DNA from: Chiridota heheva
Lineage: Eukaryota > Echinodermata > Holothuroidea > Apodida > Chiridotidae
DNA length: 64,000 nucleotides
Direction: 5' to 3'
Assembly (NCBI GenBank): GCA_020152595.1
Contig: JAIGNY010001459.1
Span: forward strand, 1,204,501 to 1,268,500
Shown: positions 4,817 through 42,730 of the stretch, piece by piece
Layout of the letters: each line of letters begins with the position of its first letter
Position numbering within the stretch: the first letter of the stretch is position 1
The notes under the pieces: model-generated
What the model was told of the DNA's origin: nothing
What the model saw: only the letters and a program-made list of their open reading frames with translations
The model's database searches: none
Translations under genes and position numbers: made by a program

Positions 4817-5271
4817 GACACATTTTAAATCAAAAATATGGCAGACATTTTAAAGAATTCACAATCAGCAGATCAGACCAAAAAGATCAAGCTTAGTATT
4901 TACATTTTTAGGTAAACTAGCAGACGATGGCAGTGTTTAGCCTTGGAAGTTTTCAGACTGGTTGCTTACGTAACAAATTTGATTGACAGGCCGGATCTAC
5001 TTCCATTACTTCTGCAAATAATAATCATTGGGTTCTTCCAATGCATTATGTATATAGAGTATATATGAACACACCTATGTATTTTCAGTCTATATGAACA
5101 CACTTTTCAAGCGAGTGATTGTACTGAAAAGCTTTGATACAAAAGTTCAAATTAATCAAAATGATTTCTTATGAATACTTAAGAAAATTCTGTCAATTGT
5201 TTTGCTTCCAAATTTCCAAAAATGATAAATTGTTATTCTTTATGAATCTCAGATTATACTACTTGGTATAA
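4817..5271. other. Unique sequence, nothing recognised
   Basis: Contains only a short local duplication around TATATGAACACAC (5064-5103). No gene evidence. Confidence 0.5.
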
Positions 5272-6186
5272 TAATAGGTGTGAGAGAGGTTATGTAACTT
5301 AATTGGTGTCAGAGAGATTAAATAACCTAATCGGTGTCAGAGAGGTTATATAACTTAATCAGTGTCAGAGAGGTTAAGTAACTTAATTGGTGACAGAGAG
5401 GTTATATAACTTAATCAGTGTCAGAGAGGTTATATAACTAAATCGGTGTCAGAGAGGTTACGTAACTTAATTGGTGTGAGGGAGGTTATATAACTTAATT
5501 GGTGGCAGAGAGGTTGTGTAACTTAATTGGTGGCAGAGAGGTTATGTAACTTAATCGGTGTCAGATAGGTTATGTAACTTAATAGGTATCAGAGAGGTTA
5601 TGTAACTTAATTAGTGTCAGAGAGGTTATGTAACTTAATTGGTGTCAGAGAGGTTATGTAACTTAATTAATATCAGAGAGCTTATGTAACTTAATGTCAG
5701 TGAGGTTATGTAACTTATTTGGTGTCAGCGAGGTTATGTAACTTAATCGGTGTCAGAGAGGTTATGTAAATTAATTGGTGTCAGAGGGGTTATGTAAATT
5801 AATTGGTGTCAGAGGGGTTATGTAAATTAATTGGTGTCAGAGAGGTTATGTAATTTAATTGGTGTCAGAGAGGTTATGCAACTTAAGTGGTGTCAGAGAG
5901 CTTATGTAACTTAATTGGTGTCAGAGAGGTTATGTAACTTAATTGGTGGCAGATAGGTTATGTAACTTAATACGTGTCAGAGAGGTTATCTTACTTAATT
6001 GATGCCAGAGAGGTTATGTAATCTAATAGGTGTCAGAGAAGTTATGTAACTTAATTGGTGTCAGAGAGGTTATGTAACTTAATTGGTGTCAGAGATGGTA
6101 TGTAACTGAATTGGTGTCAGAGAGGTTAGGTAATTTAATAGGTGTCAGAGAGGTTATGTAACTTAATTGGTGTCAGAGAGGTTATA
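5272..6186. repeat. 28-bp minisatellite
   Basis: About 32 units of 28 bp with core GGTTATGTAACTTAATTGGT followed by GTCAGAGA. Confidence 0.95.
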
Positions 6187-6204
6187 AAACTTTCAAAAGG
6201 GTCA

Positions 6205-6419
6205 AAAAGCTTTCCTGGATATTTGTAAGCCTTTGAAAAATTGTGCCCTCACTTTTCTGTCTAGTGCCCTCACCACTTTCCTGTCTAGTGCCCTCACCAC
6301 TTTCCTGTCTAGTGCCCTCACCACTTTCCTGTCTAGTGCCCTTACTACTTTCCTGTCTAGTGCCCTCACCACTTTCCTGTCTAGTGCCCTCACCACTTTC
6401 CTGTCTAGTGCCTATTTAA
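6205..6419. repeat. 24-bp array inside a MITE terminus
   Basis: Seven to eight units of 24 bp, each with CTTTCCTGTCTAGTGCCCTC. The sequence before the array (6209-6262) aligns with the right inner and terminal part of the TTAA MITE at 24416-24640 (GCGCCCTCTCTTTTCGGTCT there, GTGCCCTCACTTTTCTGTCT here). The array ends in CTAGTGCCTA and TTTAA, matching the MITE end CTAGTGCTTCT followed by its TTAA target. The array is therefore best read as an internal expansion of the MITE terminal repeat. The left half of the element is not visible and may have been lost to the 28-bp array. Confidence 0.75.
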
Positions 6420-6439
6420 ATGATCCTCTATTTCCTATA

Positions 6440-6915
6440 AATTATGATTATTCTAAGAATTAGCCGAAGGTAGCAGTAATAATGGCATTATTCTAGAAAT
6501 TAGCTAAAGGTAGCAGTAATTCTGGCATTATTCTAGAAATTAGCTAAAGGTAGCAGTAATTCTGGCATTATACTAGAAATTACCCGAAGGTAGCAGTAAT
6601 TCTGGCGTTATTCTAGAAATTAGCGAAAGTAGCAGTAATAATGGCGTTATTCTAGGAATTAGCCAAAGGTAGCAGTAATTCTGGCGTTATTCTAGGAATT
6701 AGCAAAAGGTAACAGTAATTCTGGCGTTATTCTAGGAATTAGCCAAAGGTAGCAGTAATTCTGGCGTTATTCTAGGAATTAGCCAAAGGTAGCAGTAATT
6801 CTGGCATTATTATAGGATTTAGCCAAAGGTAGCAGTAATTCTGGCATTATTCTAGGAATTAGCCGAAGGTAGCAGTAATCATGGCATTATTTCAGAAATT
6901 AGCCAAAAGTACCAG
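6440..6915. repeat. 40-bp minisatellite
   Basis: About 11 units of 40 bp with core GGAATTAGCCAAAGGTAGCA. Early units vary between AAT and TCT before GGCATTATT. Confidence 0.94.
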
Positions 6916-7214
6916 TTACCCAAGTTCACCACGATACATAACTTTTAAATCACATACATATTCAAATATTTAAAAATTGTAGAACTTTACAATCCTGTAT
7001 CTTTAAACACCACATTCTACTATATTGTGTGATGGTGGGCAGAGGTGCAGCTTTATCCGGAGAAGAGACGTCTTCACAAATGTGTTCGTTGTAAGGGAAA
7101 TAATGTTTACATGTCTACCCATAATATGCATCCTTATTTAAATATAATCACTGCAGCAATACAATGCATGTGGATATGCATTGCATGTGGATGTCTTAAT
7201 AAGAAAAAACAAGG
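6916..7214. other. Unique sequence, nothing recognised
   Basis: A short open frame (7045-7242, plus) runs into the next repeat. It has no recognisable motif and no splice support. Confidence 0.4.
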
Positions 7215-7405
7215 AGAATCATCCAGTGTTCCGCATGAGTGATTCATTGTGTGAGAGGCAATGAATGGAGTGTTCCGCAGGAGTGATTCATTGTGTGAGG
7301 GGCAATGAATGGAGTGCTCCGCAGGAGTGATTCATTGTGAGGGGCAATGAATGGAGTGCTCCGCAGGAGTGATTCATTGTGAGGGGCAATGAATGAAGAG
7401 CATGA
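7215..7405. repeat. About 40-bp minisatellite
   Basis: Four to five units of 39-46 bp sharing CGCAGGAGTGATTCATTGTG and GGGGCAATGAATGGAGTG. Confidence 0.9.
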
Positions 7406-18897: not shown

Positions 18898-20903
18898 GAG
18901 CTTGAGGAGTTCAGACTGGCAGCTGTATTGACCATACAGAAACCTAGCCAGCCTAATAGGCTGGGCTAAGGGGATGGGATCTCAGCTGCCAGCCTGCACA
19001 ACCTCACAGTAAGAGTATATTTCATTTCACACCAGATTCAGTTTGCGTTCAGAGCTTAAGGAGTTCAGACTGGCAGCTGTATTGGTCCGCAGACACCTAG
19101 CCAGCCGAATAGGCTGGGCTAAGGGGATGGGATCTCAGCTGCCAGCCTGCACAACCTCACAGTAAGAGTATACAGTATTTCATTTTACACCAGATTTACA
19201 GTTTGTGTTCAGAGCTTGAGGAGTTCAGACTGGCAGCTGTACTGACCAGTCAGAAACCTGGTCATCGACTAAAACACATCTCCTCTTAACAATAAATGAT
19301 ATCTCTAAACAAATTGACCAAAACAGTGACGTCTCTATGGCTATTCTTGTCTTCTCAAAAGCCTTTGATAAAGTCCCACACCAGCGCCTGTTACCCAAAC
19401 TTTCCGCCTATGGCATTGATGGAAATCTCCTGGTCTGGTTTGCATCATTTCTCAACAACCGCATCCAGCGTGTTGTCTGTGATGGTGAAATCTCTGATTC
19501 TAAACAGGTTTTATCCGTTGTACCACAAGGTATTGTTTTAAGTCCATTACTTTTCCTTTTATATGTAAATGACATCCCTGATGATATACACAGTACAGTT
19601 AGACTGTTTGCTGATGACTGTCTTGTGTACAGAACAATTAATAACCCCTCTGACCAACAAATCCTCCCAGATGATCTTAACAAACTTGAACAATGGCAAA
19701 ACAAATAGCAAATGAATTTTGACCCTCCTAAATGCTACATCTTGTCAATTTCTTCTAAAAAATGCTTTAAATCACCTGTATATACCTTATGCAACCAGCC
19801 ACTAAAACATGTCAACTCCCACCCATACCTAGGTGTTGAAATTGATAATACACTTAGATATACATAACATAACCAAGAAAGCTAACTCTGTACTTGGCCT
19901 ATTACAACGTAATCTCTCAAACTGTCCCACCGACGTTTAATCCACTGCTTATAAAGCTCTAAGCAGGCCAGTACTTGAGTACGCATCAGCAGTCTGGGAC
20001 CCCCATCACCAGTGCGATGTGGATCAACTTGAATCTATTCAAAGGAGAGCAGCCAGGTTCTGTATGGCAGACTACTCTTATAAATCTAGTGTAAAAAACA
20101 TGCTTCATAAATTAGATTGGCCCCTGCTAAAAGCAAGAAGATACAACACCCGGCTACATATGCTATATAAAATCAATAACAATCTTGTCGCCATCAATAA
20201 AGATGAACTTATCCCACCGTCAGAACTAATACAAGAAATAATCATGACCTTAATTTCCAGGTTCCCTATGCTAAAAAGAATGTATATAAACACTCTTTCT
20301 TCCCTCACACTAAAGGATTGGAATGCTTTACCGTCAGACATTGTACATGCACCAAGTCTCAACTGTTTCAAAGCTAAACTTACTAACACTTGTATTGCTA
20401 AGTAATTTTTTTTTTTTTATACTTTTTTACGCTCGGTTGGCGTTCATGTCCTCTTGAAGGATTTTTGCCAACTTAAGTGATTCAGATTCATCTTAATTCT
20501 ATTAGAATAGGCTTGGCTAAGGCGATAGGATATCAGCTGCCAGCTTGCACAACCTCACAGTAAGAGTTTATTTCATTTCACACCAGATTCACAATTTGAG
20601 TTCAGAGCTTGAGGAGTTCAGACTGGCAGCTGCAGTGACCAGTCAAAAGCCTAGTCATCCTAAATCTATTACAATAGGCTTGGCTAAGGCGATAGGATAT
20701 CAGCTGCCAGCCTGCACAACCTCACAGTAAGAGTATATTTCGTTTCACACCAGATTCACAATTTGAGTTCAGAGCTTAAGGAGTTCAGACTGGCAGCTGC
20801 AGTGACCAGTCAGAAGCCTAGCCACCAGTCAGAAGCCTAGCCAGCCTAAATCTATTACAATAGGCTTGGCTAAGGCGATGGGATCTCGGCTGTCAGCGTG
20901 CAC
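18898..20903. repeat. 155-167-bp tandem repeat split by a LINE
   Basis: Units start at GAGCTTGAGGAGTTCAGACT (18898, 19052, 19212, then 20605, 20772) and contain GGGATCTCAGCTGCCAGCCT or close variants. Left copies end at 19266 and right copies resume at 20493. The gap between them is filled by the LINE copy at 19267-20492. Right copies carry ATCTATTACAATAGGCTTGG in place of the left-side CTAATAGGCTGGG. Confidence 0.9.
19267..20492 (+). mobile_element. 5'-truncated LINE with RT remnant
   Basis: The plus strand encodes the RT and C-terminal region of a CR1/Jockey-like LINE. RT motif A is at about 19352-19370 (ILVFSKAFDKVPH), where the catalytic Asp of the usual DFSKAFD is Val. Motif B follows as VVPQGIVLSPLLFLLYVNDI, then the catalytic FADD at 19607-19618. 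An in-frame TAG at 19706 replaces the Trp usual in WQxxWxMxF, and at least one indel follows near 19866. The C-terminal part (20019-20405) has LESIQRRAARF, LKARRYNTRLHMLYKI and LKDWNALPSDIVHAPS with a normal end. The 3' UTR has a possible hairpin (GTTGGC 20436-20441 with GCCAAC 20467-20472) and a TGATTCAGATTCA tail. It is flanked by TCATC (19262-19266 and 20488-20492), a likely TSD. Dead copy. Confidence 0.88.
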
Positions 20904-22904: not shown

Positions 22905-23165
22905 TGTCAGCCCCCTTCCCCACCGTCTTACCACACCTCCAAAGTCAACCCCTCCCCGACCGTCTTACCACACCTTTGGAGCCAACCCCCTCCCCCACCG
23001 TCTTACCACACCTTTGAGTCAACCCCGACACTAGTTACCACCTTTGGAGTCAAGCCCCCTTAATCACATCTTTTGTCAACCCCTCCCCACCATCTTACCA
23101 CACCTTTGGAGTCAACCCCCTCCCCCACCATCTTACCACACCTTTGGGGTCGCCCCTCCCCAGTT
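22905..23165. repeat. About 36-bp minisatellite
   Basis: About seven imperfect units with CCACCGTCTTACCACACCTT and AGTCAACCCC. Confidence 0.9.
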
Positions 23166-23584
23166 TGTCATTAAGAAAATAGAAGTGTCTATTTGAGCTT
23201 TAATCCTAAAAAAGATCACACTAAACATGCAGACGAGATCAAGCTACAATGAGTAACATGATATTTGGCACTTTTTCATCCCTCTACTTCAATGTTGGCA
23301 TGATTACCGCCTTTAGCTTAGAAATGTGTTCTATACTTTGGTATAACATTAACAGGGGTAAAAGGGAAGAGGGAGGGGGGGGAGGAAAAAGTTCCAAATA
23401 ATTTTGTCTGTGATTGTAGTGGTTTTCTACCAGATTTGTGTGCGATTTAGACAATCAAATATTGCAATTTCGTTTGTTTGAAGTATGAAATGATGTTACA
23501 TGAACTTCAGATGCTTTGTCGCAGCTGATCTTATTGCTGGCTGTGAAAAAATCAAGAGTTTAAAGTTGCTCAGGTTATACGAAT
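23166..23584. other. Unique sequence, nothing recognised
   Basis: Includes a short G-rich tract (about 23366-23390). No gene evidence. Confidence 0.4.
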
Positions 23585-24192
23585 GCTTGTACCTTCAGCA
23601 AAGTAGCTATAGGGTTACGATTACTTATACCTTCAGCACAGTAGCTATAGGGATTACAATTACTTATACCTTCAGCACAGTAGCTATAGGGTTACGATTA
23701 CTTATACCTTCAGCACAGTAGCTATTGGGTAAAGATTGCTTATACCTTCAGCACAGTATCTATTGGGTTACGATTGCTTATACCTTCAGCACAGTAGCTA
23801 TAGGGATACAATTGCTTATACATTCAGCACAGTAGTTATAGGGTTACAATTGCTTATACCTCCAGCACAGTAGCTATAGGGTTATGATTACTTATACCTT
23901 CAGCACAGTAGCTATAGGGTTACGATTACTTATACCTTCAGCACAGTAGCTATAGGATTACGATTGATTATACCTTCAGCACAGTAGCTATTGGGTTACG
24001 ATTGCTTATACCTTCAGCACTGTAGCTATAGGTATACGATTACTTATACCTTCAGCACAGTAGCTATTGGGTTACGATTGCTTATACCTTCAGCACAGTA
24101 GCTTTAAGGTTACGGTTGCTTATACCTTCAGCACAATAGCTATAGGGTTACGATTGCTTATACCTTCAGCACAGTAGCTATAGGGCAATACG
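23585..24192. repeat. 38-bp minisatellite
   Basis: About 16 units, core CTTATACCTTCAGCACAGTA followed by GCTATAGGGTTACGATTA. Confidence 0.95.
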
Positions 24193-24415
24193 AATCTGCC
24201 GCACTTGCATATTAAATTGATCCGATTTTCTTCATCCAAGAAAGTAGATAGATAAATAGTAAAATGACAACAATATATTTTCAGTACTATCAGTTAAAGT
24301 TTGGGATTTTCTGTGTGTTGTTTTTCTTCTCAGTATTGCAACACAAACTTAGAGTATAGTTTACATTCATGAGCAAGGCTGATATTGTACCACATTTTCT
24401 GAAAGTGAAGTTTAA

Positions 24416-24640
24416 AGGAACACTTAACTGAAAAGTGAGGGCGTATTTTTAGGGGTCCCCAAAAATCAATTCTTTTTAGCATGCAACGGTATAGCAATTT
24501 TCTGGGTAATATGAATATTCAAGAAACCTTTGCCCTCACGTCGCCTGTGGGCTATGGAGACATGAAATTTATTAATCTTTTGTAGATATATCTGTAAATT
24601 TTTTAAAACGAGCGCCCTCTCTTTTCGGTCTAGTGCTTCT
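24416..24640. mobile_element. 225-bp MITE with TTAA target duplication
   Basis: Left end AGGAACACTTAACTGAAAAG then TGAGGGCG. The right end, read inverted, is AGAAGCACTAGACCGAAAAG then AGAGGGCG. Both are flanked by TTAA (24412-24415 and 24641-24644). Target preference TTAA is known for the piggyBac and Kolobok superfamilies. The AGG start is shared with the elements at 26951 and 51652. No coding sequence. Its terminal sequence is also the building block of the 24-bp array at 6205-6419. Confidence 0.85.
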
Positions 24641-24756
24641 TTAATAATTGAATGCTTGAATATGGTAAAGTAAGCACTCATGTGTCACTTGATGGCAAAT
24701 TACAACTGTACTGCATTCAAGTATAGAAATTACAATACACTGTGGAAAGACCTTTT

Positions 24757-26950: not shown

Positions 26951-28412
26951 AGGAGACAAAGTCTGACCTAATCCATATTTCATATGATAAAATTAAAAAT
27001 AACAAATGCACTGACCAAGTTTCATAACTCTTAAAGCAATCTAACACATTTTTTGTAATTATTAAAAACTGTAATACCACTACTTAATAGTACCATGAAA
27101 GCTGCCATTTTGAGTTCAAAACATGCAGACTATGATGTCATCAGTGCAGCTGGATTTTGGGATGCTTATAATCCACCTCAAGTTTTCTAGCCCATTATTT
27201 TTCTTCTTCTTTTTTTTAAGGTTAAGGAATATTTTTTTGTACACATGAAATTAACAAAACATTATGTTAAAACTTTGTGTCACATCATTTTGGAATAAAA
27301 CTTTAATCACATTTATAAAGATTTGTTTGCTTGTTTGGTTTTTTGATGAGGGCTTACAGCACCACGACAACAAGGGTCAAATTGTGCCTGAGAGGTCAGA
27401 TCATTCTAGAGGTAGGAATGAAAGGAAACAGCGGGAGAATGAGAGAAATTCAAGAAGAAATGGTCAGAAAGCTGTGATCGAGAGGAAGGTGCATGGTTGA
27501 AACAAAAACAAAATAGAGAGCGGGTGGAAGAGGAGGATTAAATATGGTTGTAGAGAGAAGAATGAAGGAAGGAGATCATTTTATCCGGAGGATTTTTCTG
27601 GAAGAACTCAGAAATTGAGTTTTGGGAGCGAGGGAAGCTCTGGGAAGGTTGTACAGGGGGCAAGCAAGGAGAACGTGATGGATTGTGAGGGTGCAGTGGC
27701 AATTGTTGCAGAGGGATTGGGGGGAGCCAATAAGGAGGTGGGAGTGAGTAAGGTGGGTGTGACCAATTCTAAGATGGGTAATATGAACGTTGTCGATACG
27801 AGAGAGGTTGTTGATGGTGGATTTGATCAGAATTGTGGGCTGGATGACATGGAGTTTGTAATCAATTTGGGAGTTCCATGAGGTTTGCCAGCGGTCACAA
27901 ACAAGCGGTTTGATGTTAGTCAGGCTTTTGGGAAAAGGGGTAGGGAGGAGGTTGAGGGCAAGCTTAGCGGCTGCATCAGCCCTGTTATTGCCAGGGATGC
28001 CAACATGGCTGGGTATCCAGAAAAAAATAACACTTTTCCTTCAGAGGGTGGGAGAAAGGAGTTTCCGGAGGAGGTGGCATGTGAGATTATCCCATTTAAG
28101 ATTGAGTAAAGAAGTAAGAACAGCCTTTGAGTGGGAGAAAATGGGAAAGTGGCTGCGTGGAGAGTACTCAATAAAGTTGAGGGTGAGGAGAGTTACATTA
28201 AAATCCTTATGTTCCTATTGGGGAAATTATGTCATCATGCACAATATTTAGAAACAGAATTGAACCAAATTAAATGGCAGCCCCCATGTGTCGATTTCAA
28301 ACATGAATAACTTGAGATAGGAATAAGATTTTGACTTGATGTGTTTGGCAATTGGTTAAGATTTGTATCCTCTATCATAAGAAATAATGATTGTATCAGA
28401 CTTTTGTCTCCT
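26951..28412. mobile_element. TTAA-target MITE carrying a nested LINE
   Basis: Left end AGGAGACAAAGTCTGACCTA. The right end, read inverted, is AGGAGACAAAAGTCTGATAC. Both are flanked by TTAA (26947-26950 and 28413-28416). Inverted similarity continues inward: GCTGCCATTTTGAG and ATGATGTCATCA on the left, matched by GCTGCCATTTAAT and GCATGATGACATAA on the right read inverted. So this is a foldback element of perhaps 450-550 bp, enlarged to 1,462 bp by the LINE at about 27320-28200. Piggybac or Kolobok superfamily by target site. No transposase seen. Confidence 0.8.
27320..28200 (-). mobile_element. LINE fragment with RNase H and zinc knuckle
   Basis: Minus-strand translation gives the end of an RNase H domain. 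Residues IFSHSKAVLTSLLNL come first (the usual catalytic Asp of xDSxA is His). After a one-base frameshift comes FFWIPSHVGIPGNNRADAAA (plus positions about 27965-28025), which keeps the last catalytic Asp. A spacer with ITHLRIGHTHLTHSHLL and a CCHC knuckle CNNCHCTLTIHHVLLAC follow, then LYNLPR. A second frameshift near 27610 shifts the C-terminus. The order RNase H then CCHC, and the LRIGHT-like motif, point to the I/Nimb/Jockey-related group of LINEs. The 3' UTR ends in an AACCAAACAAGCAAACAAAT tail near 27320. The copy is 5'-truncated within RNase H and lies inside the TTAA element. Confidence 0.88.
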
Positions 28413-28744
28413 TTAAATATGTTATGAGAGGTTGTAAAAACTTTTCCCGTTGATGTTTATGTTTCCATTTTTCCTATTGAGTGTTTCATTGATATTTTCT
28501 GTTAACCAAATTTAAGTGGCACTACACATATTCATATGTAGGCCTACCTTGCATGGGGATTGTTTTTAATTAATTTTAAGTTAATTATGCAAATGTATAT
28601 GATTTCTTGATCATGCTTATTGCTTCTTTTATCTCAAATGCTCAAGGCAATAATCATATGATTTTTATTTTTTTCCCAATGAGTTCAATTTCTGAAAGAA
28701 AACATTGTCAAAATGTCAGTTTATGCCACCTTCACAAACTTTAA
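28413..28744. other. Unique AT-rich sequence, nothing recognised
   Basis: No supported feature beyond the TSD at the left edge. Confidence 0.4.
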
Positions 28745-29853
28745 AATACTGATTTTCTGGCCCATGTCCTCTCCCTATAACAATACTGAGTTTCTAGCCC
28801 ATGTCTTCTCCCTATAACAATACTGAGTTTCTGGCCCATGTCCTCTCCCTATAACAATACTGAGTTTCTAGCCCATGTCCTATCCCTATAACAATACTGA
28901 GTTTCTAGCCCATGTCCTCTCCCTATAACAATACTGAGTTTCTGGCCCATGTCCTCTCCCTATAACAATACTGTGTTTCTGGCCCATGTCCTCTCCCTAT
29001 AACAATAATGAGTTTCTAGCCCATGTCCTTTCCCTATAACAATACTGAATTTCTAGCCCATGTCCTCTCCCTATAACAATACTGAGTTTCTAGCCCATGT
29101 CCTCTCCCTATAACAATACTAAGTTCCTAGCCCATGTCCTCTCCCTATAACAATACTGAGTTTCTGGCCCATGTCCTCCCCCTATAACAATACTGAGTTT
29201 CTAGCCCATGTCCTCTCCCTATAACAATACTGAGTTTCTGGCCCATGTCCTTTCCCTATAACAATACTGAGTTTTTAGCCCATGTCCTCTCCCTATAAAA
29301 ATACTGAGTTTCTAGCCCATGTCCTCTCCCTATAACAATAATGAGTTTCTGGCCCATGTCCTCTCCCTATAACAATACTGAGTTTCTAGCCCATGTCCTT
29401 TCCCTATAACAATACTGAGTTTCTGGCCCATGTCCTCTCTCTATAACAATACTGAGTTTCTAGCCAATGTCCTCTCCCTATAACAATACTGAGTTTCTGG
29501 CCCATGTCCTCTCCCTATAACAATACTGAGTTTCTAGCCCATGTCCTCTCCCTATAACAATACTGAGTTGCTAGACCATGTCCTCACCCTATAACAATAC
29601 TGAGTTTCTAGCCCATGTCCTCACCCTATAACAATACTGAGTTTCTAGCCCATGTCCTCTCCCTATAACAATACTGAGTTCCTAGCCCATGTCCTCTCCC
29701 TATAACCATAATGAGTTTCTGGCCGATGTCCTCTCCCTATAACAATACTGAGTTTCTAGCCCATGTCCTCTCCCTATAACAATACTGAGTTTCTAGCCCA
29801 TGTCCTCTCCCTATAACAATACTGAGTTTCTAGCCCATGTCTTCTCCCTATAA
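28745..29853. repeat. 37-bp minisatellite
   Basis: About 30 units, core GAGTTTCTAGCCCATGTCCT followed by CTCCCTATAACAATACT. The commonest variant is TAGCCC against TGGCCC. Confidence 0.97.
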
Positions 29854-35068: not shown

Positions 35069-35734
35069 TAGGCCTATACTTAACATAGGATGAAAATCTA
35101 TAATATGAAGCTATAATCCTCAACAAAATTAAAGAAACTTAACGTAAACTATGCACAACATTTGTAATGTTAAAAGTCTTTCTCCACCTCCTAGTCTGGA
35201 GGCAAACAGCTAAAAGTTGCTTCTATATCAAATTGCTAAACATTTTGGTTACAAGCTGGAAACAGGTCTTGAAATAGGTATTGGAGATTGCAAAAATACT
35301 TGTTTCCAAAATTTCATGTCTTTCTTACGGCCGCCATTGTGAATTTCAAAACGGCTGCCTATATGCACTATTATGTAGAATATCCTGGCTTCTATGTTAG
35401 ATACATGACTGTTGTGGGTGGCTTAGCTTCTCTTTTCAATGCCAGATGACTTCATAAAAGCTTTTTTGGTTGTTTATCATTAATTTCAAAATGGCTGTCA
35501 TCATGAACTTTAAAAAGACCACCATCAAAAATTTCAAAATGGCCAACATAAAGCTTTTGCTAGTGAGGTAGATACATAGTCCATGTGCCCGAGGGGTGTA
35601 TCAGTACCAAAAAAGACTACCAACACCATACCCTTCCCACCATGCATCTAGGGTGGTCATGTGATGACAAAACTGCTTTCTGGACGGTCCAGATGAATAG
35701 CTTTCAAAATTTACAGGTGGTTTTAGTTTTCAGG
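35069..35734. other. Unique sequence with repeated TTTCAAAATGGC words
   Basis: Words like AATTTCAAAATGGCTG occur several times between 35340 and 35550, suggesting a decayed interspersed repeat that I cannot name. Confidence 0.35.
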
Positions 35735-35905
35735 CGATGGTGTGTGTTATAACACATTATATGTATTGCGATGGTGTGTGTTATAACACATTAAATGTAT
35801 TGCGATGGTATGTGTTATATATGTACATATCGATGGTGTGTGTTATAACACATTATATGTATTGCGATGGTATGTGTTATATATGTACATATCATATGTA
35901 TTGCA
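35735..35905. repeat. Irregular tandem repeat
   Basis: Two unit types alternate: GCGATGGTGTGTGTTATAAC with an ACATTATATGTATT end, and a shorter unit with TTATATATGTACATATC. Confidence 0.85.
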
Positions 35906-36289
35906 ATCAACTGCTGGGTAATACTAATTATGATAATACCTTTTCTGAAATGAATTGCCTAACAGTGATTAAGAATATTCAGTACCGAATGTCATCTTTC
36001 CCACCTAGTGCATGTTTATGGAATTACCATTACCTCTCAAGAAGCTGAGCCATTTAGACAAGCAATTATATACTTTTTTTCCTGAGTATTGAATGTAATG
36101 TTAATATTAGAACTCTCCGAGATCATGAATGTGCCACTTTCCCTGCTTGAAGTAGTTTAAATGCCAAGAGAGGTCCGGTTTAAGTTTTTCTCACTATGAC
36201 TGTGGGGCAAGAACAAGACGACCTGTTATAACCGAACTGGTTCAACACGGTAACCTCACCTAGAAGAGACTGGCATTTGCCAATCAAAA
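35906..36289. other. Unique sequence, nothing recognised
   Basis: No supported feature. Confidence 0.4.
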
Positions 36290-36560
36290 TGTTGCATGGG
36301 CATTGGTGTGCCATGCTGTATGCTGCATGGGCTTTGGTGTGCCATGCTGTATCTTGCATGGGCATTGGTGTGCCATGCTGTATGCTGCATGGGCATTGGT
36401 GTGCCATGCTGTATGTTGCATGGGCATTGGTGTGCCATGCTGTATGTTGCATGGGCATTGGTGTGCCATGCTGTGTGTTGCATGGGCATTGGTGTGCCAT
36501 GCTGTATGTTGCATGGGCATTGGTGTCCCATGCTGTATGTTGCATGGGCTTTGTTGTGCT
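36290..36560. repeat. 31-bp minisatellite
   Basis: About nine units, core GCATGGGCATTGGTGTGCCA followed by TGCTGTATGTT. All six frames give Cys/His-rich artefacts. Confidence 0.95.
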
Positions 36561-37139
36561 ATGCTACTCAGAGGTATTGAGCTAGATTGAGATCAATAAC
36601 AAAAAAGATATAGTCGGACCATAAATCAACATAACTGCCCAGTGGCAGTGCCATTCATTACCATAACAAGGTCCCTCAAAGTTTTTGAAGCCACCCTGAC
36701 TTTTCAATGGGCGCTGAAGCGGGCCCTGAACCCACACTGCTACTTACTCATTACTCGTACAGTGCCGACTTTGGGGTCCCAGTTTACCCCTGCTCACATA
36801 CCCCCAGTCAACCACTTGCTGCTGCTACAAAAACAATAGAATTTTATGTGGCGATTGGGCCCATCACATACGGGGGCTGCGTGACATCTCTTATACTGAC
36901 GATACTGAACGACGGAACATGCATGGGCCAAGGGTACAGTGACCGATAAGTAGCGGGCAACAAGAAAATCATTCTTTCAATAAAACAGATGTTGAACAAC
37001 CATGGTAGAGTTGGTAAGCTGGGGGCGTTTGAATTGAAGGTTGAAGAGACTGCAGGTCTTAATGTTGCTTGGTGACAAGCCAGTGAGCTTAGAGTGGTTG
37101 GTGTTGGCTTGAGATTGGGAGGGGAGGGGGTGACAGTGT
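36561..37139. other. Unique sequence with a GC-richer stretch
   Basis: About 36640-36950 is richer in G and C than its surroundings and holds two overlapping plus-strand frames (36642-36839 and 36707-36949). Neither has a known motif or clear splice site. Could be a transposon shard or chance. Confidence 0.2.
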
Positions 37140-40185: not shown

Positions 40186-41243
40186 GATCCTCACAAAGAA
40201 GATTTAGCCTACCAACTCAATGGAAAACATCAAGGTGAATTTTTTGCTTTTCTTCCCTTAAGCACTATACTTTTTTAGCACTAGCAATGTTTTCACTTGT
40301 AATAATAAAATGTTTTCCAAACAGTCACTCATGCACTCAAGAGTGGGTATTGCTTCATCAATAAAGAGATGATGATAAATTCAAATTCAAATAATGCATA
40401 AGCTAAATAGGACAATACATCTCACTGAAAGTATAAGTACCAAAATCTTGTTTTCACAACATATTTTGCAATAATCATTTTGCTCCATAAATTGAGAATA
40501 ATATAACATTTTAAAGCAATCACAATTTTTATTTTGTATTTTAAACGTTGAATTTAGCCCTCCAACTAATTATCCTTTACAATAATTTTGATTGCTGTTT
40601 TCTTCAAATCATAATCCATACAATAATAGGCGGGGTTTGGGGGAGCAAGTGGGGCACTTGTGTTTGTATCTTTTGTTTAGTGATTTTGTGTATCTTAGTA
40701 TGATTTTGCCCCCCCCCCACCCCTTCCTCCTCCTCCTCCCAAACTTTTCTGTATGCATACAATATTAGTTCAACATACATGTACTGTACTATAAGTTCAA
40801 CATACATGTGCTGTACCACTTCACTACCCATTTCCTACTTCAAAGTAGATCTAATGAAAAGGACAAACATGTTTTCATGCCATGAATAATCTGCACAACA
40901 GCCATATTGTACTGTATACAAGCACACCATGAAAATACTTATTGATCTTTGCAAGCATAATTATGTTCATCCTGTCTAACGAAACTGAGATTTGTTATTG
41001 GGAACCAGGGAAACCTTGATCAAAACTAGGTCAAGCTTGAGTTTAGCCCTCCTATTAATTATCCTTGACGATACTATGATTCTATTTTTGGCTTAAATCT
41101 TTATTTATTAATCTTCTACATTTGATACAGTAGTCAGCTCATAATGAACCACTTTACTAGTTTTCTACTACGAAGTAAATACTGATAAAAAGCACTAAAA
41201 CCATGTCCTCATGCCATGAATAAAAATTATTGTACAGTATACA
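40186..41243. other. Unique sequence, nothing recognised
   Basis: Holds a small C-rich tract (40709-40740) and a duplicated GTTCAACATACATGT. Words near 40545-40580 recur near 41040-41070 (TTTAGCCCTCC...AATTATCCTT), a faint old duplication. Confidence 0.4.
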
Positions 41244-41505
41244 TCCATACCGAGCAGCAAAAAGTATACATTAATACCGAGTGGCAAAAAGTATACATCA
41301 ATACCGAGCGGCAAAAAGTATACATCAATAACGAGCAGCAAAAAGTATACATCAATACCGAGCGGCCAAAAGTATACCTCAATACCGAGTGGCAAAAAGT
41401 ATACATCAATACCGAGCGGCAAAAAGTATACATCCACAATACCGAGCGGCAAAAAGTATACATTAATACTGAGCAGCAAAAAGTATACATCAATACCGAG
41501 CGGCA
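41244..41505. repeat. 27-bp minisatellite
   Basis: About ten units, core CAATACCGAGCGGCAAAAAG followed by TATACAT. The nine-codon period leaves frames open on both strands. Confidence 0.95.
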
Positions 41506-41644
41506 AAGTTCCAAAAGACACTTCAAGACTTCTCATATTAGATGAAGGAGCCTTATTTTTCTTCTCTTGAACTTAAACTTTGCTGAGACAGACAAGACTC
41601 ACAAGAGCATATAGGATTTGTAATCTGGCAAGGAGGTTGATATA

Positions 41645-41922
41645 ATAATAATTTCTGGGGTTAAAGATGTAGGATCCTGTGTGGGGTTAAACAAGTACTG
41701 TAGGATCCCAGTGGACGGAAAGATGAAGGGTCCTGTGTGGGTTTAAAGATGTATTATCCTGTGTGGGGTTAAAGATGTAGGGTCCTGTCTGGGGTTAAAG
41801 ATGTACGATTCTGCGTCGGGTTTAAAGATATATGATCCTGTGTGGGGTTGAAGATGTTGGATCTTGTGTGGAGTTAAAGATGTAGGATCCTGTGTGGGTT
41901 AGGGTTAGGGTTAGACAGACAT
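41645..41922. repeat. 26-bp minisatellite ending in telomere-like motif
   Basis: About nine imperfect units, core GTGTGGGGTTAAAGATGTAG followed by GATCCT. The final unit runs into three GGGTTA hexamers (about 41897-41917), the metazoan telomere repeat in register. Confidence 0.9.
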
Positions 41923-42186
41923 CAGTTACACTTTTGTAGACAAATTTTACATTTCGGGAGCTTGAATTCTAAAAACTACATGAAATATTTCTTATTCAAA
42001 TACAAGTTTTATGAATCATACACAAATCATACTTGAGCCAGAATTCTAAAAGCAAAACTGATAAAAAGTAGAAGGAGATGCATTTTAACACAAAAGTTTG
42101 TACAGGCACAAATGGGAGCTCACGTACAATTTGATTACACTTCACTCATTATACTCTGTGTGATGGAAGGAGCTAAAAATTGTTAG

Positions 42187-42730
42187 CTTGTCACGAGTGT
42201 GCTGCATTGCTTGTCATGAGCGTGTTGCATTGCTTGTCAAGAGCGTGTTGCATTGCTTGTCAAGAGCGTGTTGCATTGCTTGTCGCGAGCGTGTTGCATT
42301 GCTTGTCGCGAGCGTGTTGCATTGCTTGTCGCGAGCGCGTTGCATTGCTTGTCGCGAGTGCGTTGCATTGCTTGTCGCGAGCGCGTTGCATTGCTTGTCG
42401 CGAGCGCGTTGCATTGCTTGTCGCGAGCGCGTTGCATTGCTTGTCGCGAGCGCGTTGCATTGCTTGTCGCGAGCGTGCTGCATTGCTTGTCGCGAGCGTG
42501 CTGCACTGATTGTCGCAAGCGTGCTGCACTGCTTGTCGTGAGCGTTCTGCATTGCTTGTCGCGAGCGTGCTGCACTGCTTGTCGCGAGCCGTGCTGCATT
42601 GCTTGTCGTAAGCGTGCTGCATTGCTTGACGCGAGCGTGCTGCATTGCTTGTCACGAGCGTGGTGCATTGCTTGTCACGAGCGTGCTGCATTGCTTGTCA
42701 CGAGTGTGCTGCATTGTTTGCTGCAAGCTA
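42187..42730. repeat. 23-bp minisatellite
   Basis: About 23 units, core GCGTTGCATTGCTTGTCGCG. CpG-rich in the centre (GTCGCGAGCGCG) and decaying to CA/TG at both sides (GTCACGAGTG, GTCAAGAGCG). This is the most CpG-dense stretch of the window. Confidence 0.95.

Follow-up and report, generated by a model that had tools for sequence, protein, structure and literature searches.

The tandem array at positions 6245-6415 of the analysed window, a 64,000-nucleotide stretch of Chiridota heheva DNA (C1455:1204501-1268500), is very probably the right terminal inverted repeat of a MITE, here called family B, which was amplified in place after the element had been inserted. This reading rests on the structure of the array itself, on the identity of its flanking sequence, and on sister copies of the same element in the 1.1-Gb genome assembly (3744 contigs), in which the corresponding terminus is present as a single unit. 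The idea that a MITE terminus was the origin of a tandem array, put forward in the original prediction, is therefore upheld; the element proposed there as its parent is replaced by another one. Coordinates of all described features are collected in Table 1.

Structure of the terminal array

In the window, TRF reported a period of 24 at 6250-6412, with 6.8 copies and 96% matches. The innermost unit, positioned beside the element body, is 21 bp long and lies at an edit distance of 1 from the family terminal 21-mer. Each of the six outer units is 24 bp long and lies at an edit distance of 5, three of these five steps being accounted for by a 3-bp insertion which, together with one substitution, is common to all six. 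The outermost unit, GTCTAGTGCCTAT, runs into the end of the element and is followed by TTAA, in agreement with the earlier proposal that the array closes with the element's own end.

Similarity of the units to the terminal repeat of the MITE at 24416-24640, also suggested previously, was confirmed: 21 of 23 bases are identical between 6245-6267 and 24614-24636 (blastn E 0.012-0.013 in the 64-kb window), and the array matches the profile of 28 copies of that element's family, A, with E 5.7e-5. The alignment of minus-strand peptides described in the original prediction would be a consequence of this DNA similarity. Among the 44 TRF rows with a period of 15-60 in the window, the best two matches to the consensus of family A or B are the arrays 6245-6415 and 5272-6192. 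Searching the whole genome with the 24-bp unit and allowing up to 2 mismatches gave 6 matches, all at the window locus, and none with the reversed control. Exact patterns had zero matches in IMG/VR.

The parent element

Sequence preceding the array was originally aligned with the MITE at 24416-24640. This part of the prediction did not hold, as both the flank and the interior are those of family B, and family A (24412-24644) was rejected as the parent because its likeness is confined to the terminal repeat. The score of the flank 6207-6244 against the family A consensus is weak, being equalled by 46 of 5000 shuffles and by 107 of 18,230 other 38-mers of the window, and for this reason the origin of the array was doubtful from the family A flank alignment alone; it was settled by the genome search.

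With 6190-6440 as a query, 46 matches were listed: the window itself, 34 places similar to the flank plus one unit (81-90% identity over about 60-80 bp), and 11 fragments belonging to four array loci, namely C2066, C1845, C618, and C1907. Alignment of 22 of the 34 places produced a family B majority consensus of 243 bp, which starts with TTAAAGGTGGACTAGACC and finishes with GGTCTAGTGCCCCTTTAA, and the start and the reverse-complemented end (TTAAAGGGGCACTAGACC) form terminal inverted repeats. The element is short, putatively non-coding, and high-copy, with 34 copies retrieved by the right end, array carriers excluded.

Ten of the 22 aligned copies, which were truncated, carried arrays or aligned poorly, were set aside, and a profile was built from the other 12. 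It has two matches in the window, one at 5183-5299 (model 52-158, E 7.9e-13), the other at 6166-6269 (model 133-237, E 1.1e-25). The two matches are colinear and flank a 28-bp array, both sides of which continue into family B. The 28-bp unit is identical to family B consensus positions 133-158 in 22 of 26 bases, a score equalled by none of 2000 shuffled units. Based on the colinear matches around the 28-bp array and on the homology of its unit, the segment 5183-6419 is interpreted as one MITE with two arrays. The 5272-6192 array, missed in the earlier note, is a second expansion within the same family B copy. The left ~ 51 bp of this copy, including the left terminal repeat, are undetectable, which we count against the explanation preferred here, since it leaves the target site visible on one side only. 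Taken together, the unit is homologous to the element, the array is embedded in it, and other copies carry a single unit, as expected of a transposon-derived minisatellite; single-unit sister copies were also found for arrays in families C and D.

The best 40 of 4258 first-look candidates were scored in the genome search for family A, and 28 copies, the window copy included, were aligned. Families A and B have the terminal ~ 30 bp in common and nothing beyond. In the alignments, 19 of 28 family A copies are bordered by TTAA at both ends, compared with 2 of 12 in family B, a point against the preferred explanation. The AGGRR terminal motif, as defined in PMC6004289, was found: the 28 left ends of family A include AGGAG in 17, AGGAA in 3, and AGGGG in 2 cases, and AGGGG is present in 6 of 12 right ends of family B, the others being different. 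Judged from these sequences, both families look Kolobok/T2-like by their AGG-G ends and, in family A, by the TTAA target.

Table 1. Location of the described elements and arrays in the window and at other loci.
Location	Strand	Feature	Array	Evidence
5183-6419	+	Family B MITE copy, ~ 1.24 kb after two internal arrays		Two colinear profile matches
5272-6192		Minisatellite from family B interior ~ 131-158	33 copies, 28 bp	TRF, unit likeness, flanks
6193-6244	+	Family B interior linking both arrays		Genome matches and profile
6245-6415	+	Family B right terminal repeat	7 units	TRF, family B profile, unit distances, unit search
6416-6419		TTAA, outer end of the element		Read from sequence
23417-24407	+	Family C dispersed element, left part missing		One-unit sister copies
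23578-24185		Array in family C	16 copies, 38 bp	Sister copies
24412-24644	+	Intact family A MITE, TTAA to TTAA, 239-bp consensus		Profile E 1.1e-71; genome matches
35500-37138	+	Family D dispersed element with two arrays, true ends undefined		Sister copies
35734-35893		Array in family D	34/62 bp	Single unit in L127-L129
36289-36565		Array in family D	31 bp	Single unit in L127-L129
L043 (C2066)		Complete family A element, TTAA to TTAA	17 x 21 bp	
L046 (C1845)		Family A, array at the other end	6.2 x 21 bp	
L107 (C796)		Family A	26.3 x 21 bp	
L108 (C1031)		Family A, 21-bp dimer	2.2 x 21 bp	
L104 (C618)		Family B	53.2 x 25 bp	
L092 (C1907)		Family B model 14-148, then array	63.3 x 21 bp	

Sister copies with one, two, and many units

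Inspection of genomic copies for low unit numbers, as the original prediction had advised, revealed MITE copies with one, two, and many units. Retrieval by the right end yielded 34 family B ends, 33 with a single unit and one (L059) with a duplication of 20 bp in 2.3 copies. A short duplication (12 bp, 2.1 copies) was also observed in L023. The pattern of a tandem junction between two terminal repeats gave 19 exact matches in the genome, at two loci (control 0), and 83 matches at ten loci if up to 2 mismatches were allowed (reversed control 1). Six of the ten loci are MITE copies of families A and B (Table 1), and the window array is outside these matches because of its 3-bp insertion. Including the window, terminal arrays were found at seven MITE loci. 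Matches at C444, C468, and C3200 were rejected as MITE arrays, being single, associated with no MITE and apparently due to chance; the one at C468 sits in an exon whose translation matches the Pfam NFRKB second winged helix.

An array of about 100 TIR-like units with a period of 21 and no MITE flank is located on C3294 (~ 488-2618). About 16 of 21 bases of its unit are like the MITE terminal repeat, as estimated by eye, and it adjoins a different 24-bp array. Arrays lacking a MITE flank had been named as evidence that would speak against the proposed origin. For the 24-bp unit itself, confined to the window locus, no such array was found in the genome, but the C3294 array does show that a TIR-like 21-bp array can be found without a flank, which we count against the preferred explanation.

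The four family A carriers (L043, L046, L107, and L108) are not mutually nearest relatives: compared at body positions, the closest other carrier ranks 19th-26th among 43 copies, and identity between carriers is 0.74-0.84 vs. medians of 0.79-0.84 to non-carriers. For this reason, births of the family A arrays look independent of one another. The consensus unit of L043 is identical to that of L046 and equals the family terminal repeat, but the two copies have it at opposite ends.

L049 carries an array in the element interior (19 bp x 20.1), enclosed by family B sequence, and so does L063 (94 bp x 4.9). As a separate observation, a 28-bp array with a unit starting with TTAAAGG (L095, 2114-2788) directly adjoins a family B copy at its outer left end.

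Other arrays in the window

The 37 arrays picked from the TRF table occupy 39% of the window. Twelve were examined, chosen non-randomly, as two of them are the array in focus and its neighbour. Eleven were contained in genome-search queries, whole or, for 6245-6415, nearly whole, and the twelfth, 5272-6192, was compared with the fetched family B copies. Five of the 12 lie within dispersed elements that have one-unit sister copies, a fraction that may or may not exceed chance. No such parent was found for the other seven, for five of which the best 40 candidates were scored. The suggestion that transposon ends could be a general route to the many arrays of the window was borne out in part: three more arrays are expansions of elements, but of their interiors and not of their ends.

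One of them belongs to family C. Its sister copies have, judged by eye, one unit in L121 and L123-L126; L122 has 2.7, and many-unit copies also exist. Extra units were observed in 12 of 39 family C right ends outside the window, a count obtained with a one-unit query that favours array carriers, and they may be due to transport by transposition. The ends of this element are tentatively TA followed by CGCGACTTCACACTTTCAG (by eye, in six copies), and the family A MITE at 24412 starts within about 4 bp of the end of the family C element. Family D is represented by two arrays. In at least 8 further copies of it, the matches to the left and right of the 31-bp array have an overlap of exactly 31 bases. 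This 31-bp unit also appears to have undergone a separate long expansion at C1561:321827-323943.

In the genome search, arrays 6447-6916 and 7225-7395 matched only the window itself, and crossing matches for 22906-23162, 28745-29853, 41236-41507, and 41656-41900 were absent among the best 40 candidates of each. A SINE-like repeat at 41928-42179, ending with GGAGCTAAAA, is located immediately before the 23-bp array 42186-42720; it was rejected as the source of this array, as the two abut but the unit is not derived from the repeat. A related array exists at C781:546194-547774, and a similar GCTAGCTTG-rich sequence borders one of the family B copies, that of L058.

For 36 of the 37 arrays, inverted repeats were sought in the 300 bp on either side, and none surpassed those in shuffled flanks (lowest 11 of 100 nulls); the 37th array runs off the window and was left out. 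This negative result means little, because the test missed all five arrays that lie in elements.

Among further features of the window, a dispersed 170-bp repeat at 28413-28582 is found in tandem elsewhere, at ~ 230-bp spacing (C2342:1113126-1118117). Open frames 19220-19708 and 27576-28040, with a Pfam RVT_1 match (E 5e-18) and a weak RNase H match below the curated cut-off, are probably retroelement remains; one open frame of 162 residues in the window matches reverse transcriptase.

Rate of array formation

If MITEs or their ends had a special property of seeding arrays, they would be preferred places of array birth. Terminal arrays at seven MITE loci (window counted), the five of 12 examined window arrays within dispersed elements, and the family C right ends with extra units, subject to the bias of the query mentioned above, are in favour of such a property. 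To compare the rate of formation with the background, we used the 34 copies of family B that the right end had retrieved, not all of them full length; L092 and L104, which had come in through their arrays, were left out. Interior arrays of at least 4 units were found in 2 of them, and a terminal 2.3-copy duplication in 1. The background was formed by 41 loci of at least 3 kb (126 kb in total), fetched because of MITE matches and not because of arrays, in which arrays with a period of 10-120, at least 4 copies, and a TRF score of at least 100 were counted. The 24 arrays recorded correspond to 0.20 per kb of other sequence, and 2 of the 24 are the same family B interior arrays. At this rate, about 1.7 arrays are expected in 34 x 243 bp, which on these small numbers indicates no excess. 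In addition, the terminal 23-mer has 699 exact matches in the genome, some of which are array units (control 0), so tandem ends are rare. As the family B rate is about that of the background, special seeding by transposon ends is not apparent, and we consider it rather unlikely. By the same rule, array density is 0.53 per kb of all sequence in the window vs. 0.19 per kb in the 41 background loci.

Origin of the array

According to another view, arrays are carried by transposition: tandem terminal repeats would offer the transposase extra binding sites, so that array-bearing copies would form a mobile sublineage under selection. This has been put forward for Galileo and Tetris, and the Tetris paper is a precedent (PMC4079207). 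In accordance with it, L043 keeps TTAA outside both ends, which places its array inside the mobile unit; its consensus unit recurs at C1845, although that unit is also the family terminal repeat; and extra units at 12 of 39 family C right ends appear as if inherited. We nevertheless regard this view as improbable for the studied array, given that family A carriers are not close kin, that arrays of L043 and L046 are at opposite ends, that the window unit is confined to the window locus, and that L092 lacks the neighbouring interior and L104 a clear outer end. Capture of a pre-existing 24-bp minisatellite by the MITE, or recombination with it, which would make the likeness secondary, could be imagined in the light of the flankless C3294 array, but is hardly credible with a unit that exists at one locus alone, with a body-side unit close to the ancestral terminal repeat, with an outer end running into TTAA, and with sister copies carrying a single unit.

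In the preferred reading, amplification in place, short direct repeats would give rise to the first duplication, through slippage or unequal exchange between them. In the family B case the repeats could be the GGGCAC motifs placed 21 bp apart, at the outer and the inner edge of the terminal repeat, giving a 21-bp unit. Later units would be added by unequal exchange, with the variant unit spreading outward. An interior segment of the same copy was also amplified, 33 times. In the right-end consensus of family B, GGGCAC at offset 21 is indeed the longest exact direct repeat when the first 70 bases and offsets of 8-44 are considered. A direct repeat of at least 5 bp at this offset exists in 5 of 12 right ends of family B, 4 of 28 right ends of family A, and 0 of 28 left ends of family A. 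Family A nonetheless made 21-bp arrays at both ends, and because its ends mostly lack the repeat, the direct-repeat step is not general. Most likely, the array is a neutral by-product of a minisatellite-prone genome; no sign of function was seen. Its origin can be read thanks to the high copy number of the element that served as substrate.

Comparison with known systems

Minisatellites in transposons are a known phenomenon, of which the array described here is, to our knowledge, a new member; its value is in the series of sister copies. T2-MITEs of Xenopus, described in PMC6004289 as having a TTAA target and AGGRR ends, are placed there in Kolobok. The Xmix (T2-A1) MITE has given rise to Xstir repeats (PMC6004289, PMC9659126), the source being the TIR according to a review table in PMC9659126 and an internal segment according to PMC6004289. 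Xmix is a TTAA-targeting MITE with AGGRR ends, a part of which is amplified in tandem, and the families studied here resemble it in the ends, in the tandem amplification and, probably for family A, in the target. As presented in these sources, Xstir is a large repeat family, whereas every terminal array found in this work is a separate locus.

Tandem units derived from terminal inverted repeats and grading into longer arrays are also reported for Tetris/TIR-220 of Drosophila virilis and for Galileo (PMC4079207). According to the same report, Tetris is of the foldback type; its TIRs contain units of ~ 220 bp and its arrays are of kb size, in contrast to the MITEs studied here, which are ~ 240 bp long and have units of 21-25 bp at one end. 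BrickBuilt of Porphyromonas gingivalis includes a 23-bp minisatellite within a MITE; unlike the elements here, it is bacterial, its forms occur 19 times in one strain, and its small inverted-repeat ends are described in separate leader and tail subunits (PMC4596501).

PMC6947457 reviews how minisatellites are born between short direct repeats within dispersed elements. Alu-derived minisatellites and the proposal of Haber and Louis from 1998, as summarized in PMC6947457 and PMC9659126, correspond to our case in having a motif between short direct repeats in a dispersed element. Element-derived minisatellites covered by these two reviews come mostly from retroelements and not from the ends of DNA transposons.

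Significance

The beginnings of minisatellites usually escape observation, as the ancestor with one unit has been lost. In the studied genome this ancestor is preserved in sister copies of families B, C, and D, and of family A at other loci, and the birth of a minisatellite is traceable through single-unit, dimer, and short-array states existing side by side, which form an unusually clear before/after set. The same 21-bp period recurs across different copies, ends, and families. Sister copies also allow the proposal that direct repeats set the unit to be tested: it fits the right end of family B and does not fit the left end of family A. Only tentatively, and with more doubt than confidence, we suggest that minisatellites of this genome were born mostly by repeated independent duplication in dispersed elements, and that, owing to the high copy number of these elements, the unexpanded state could be read for a large share of arrays. 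If this is true, the genome would offer many natural before/after pairs, from which one could measure directly where arrays start, with what period, and at what rate they are born.
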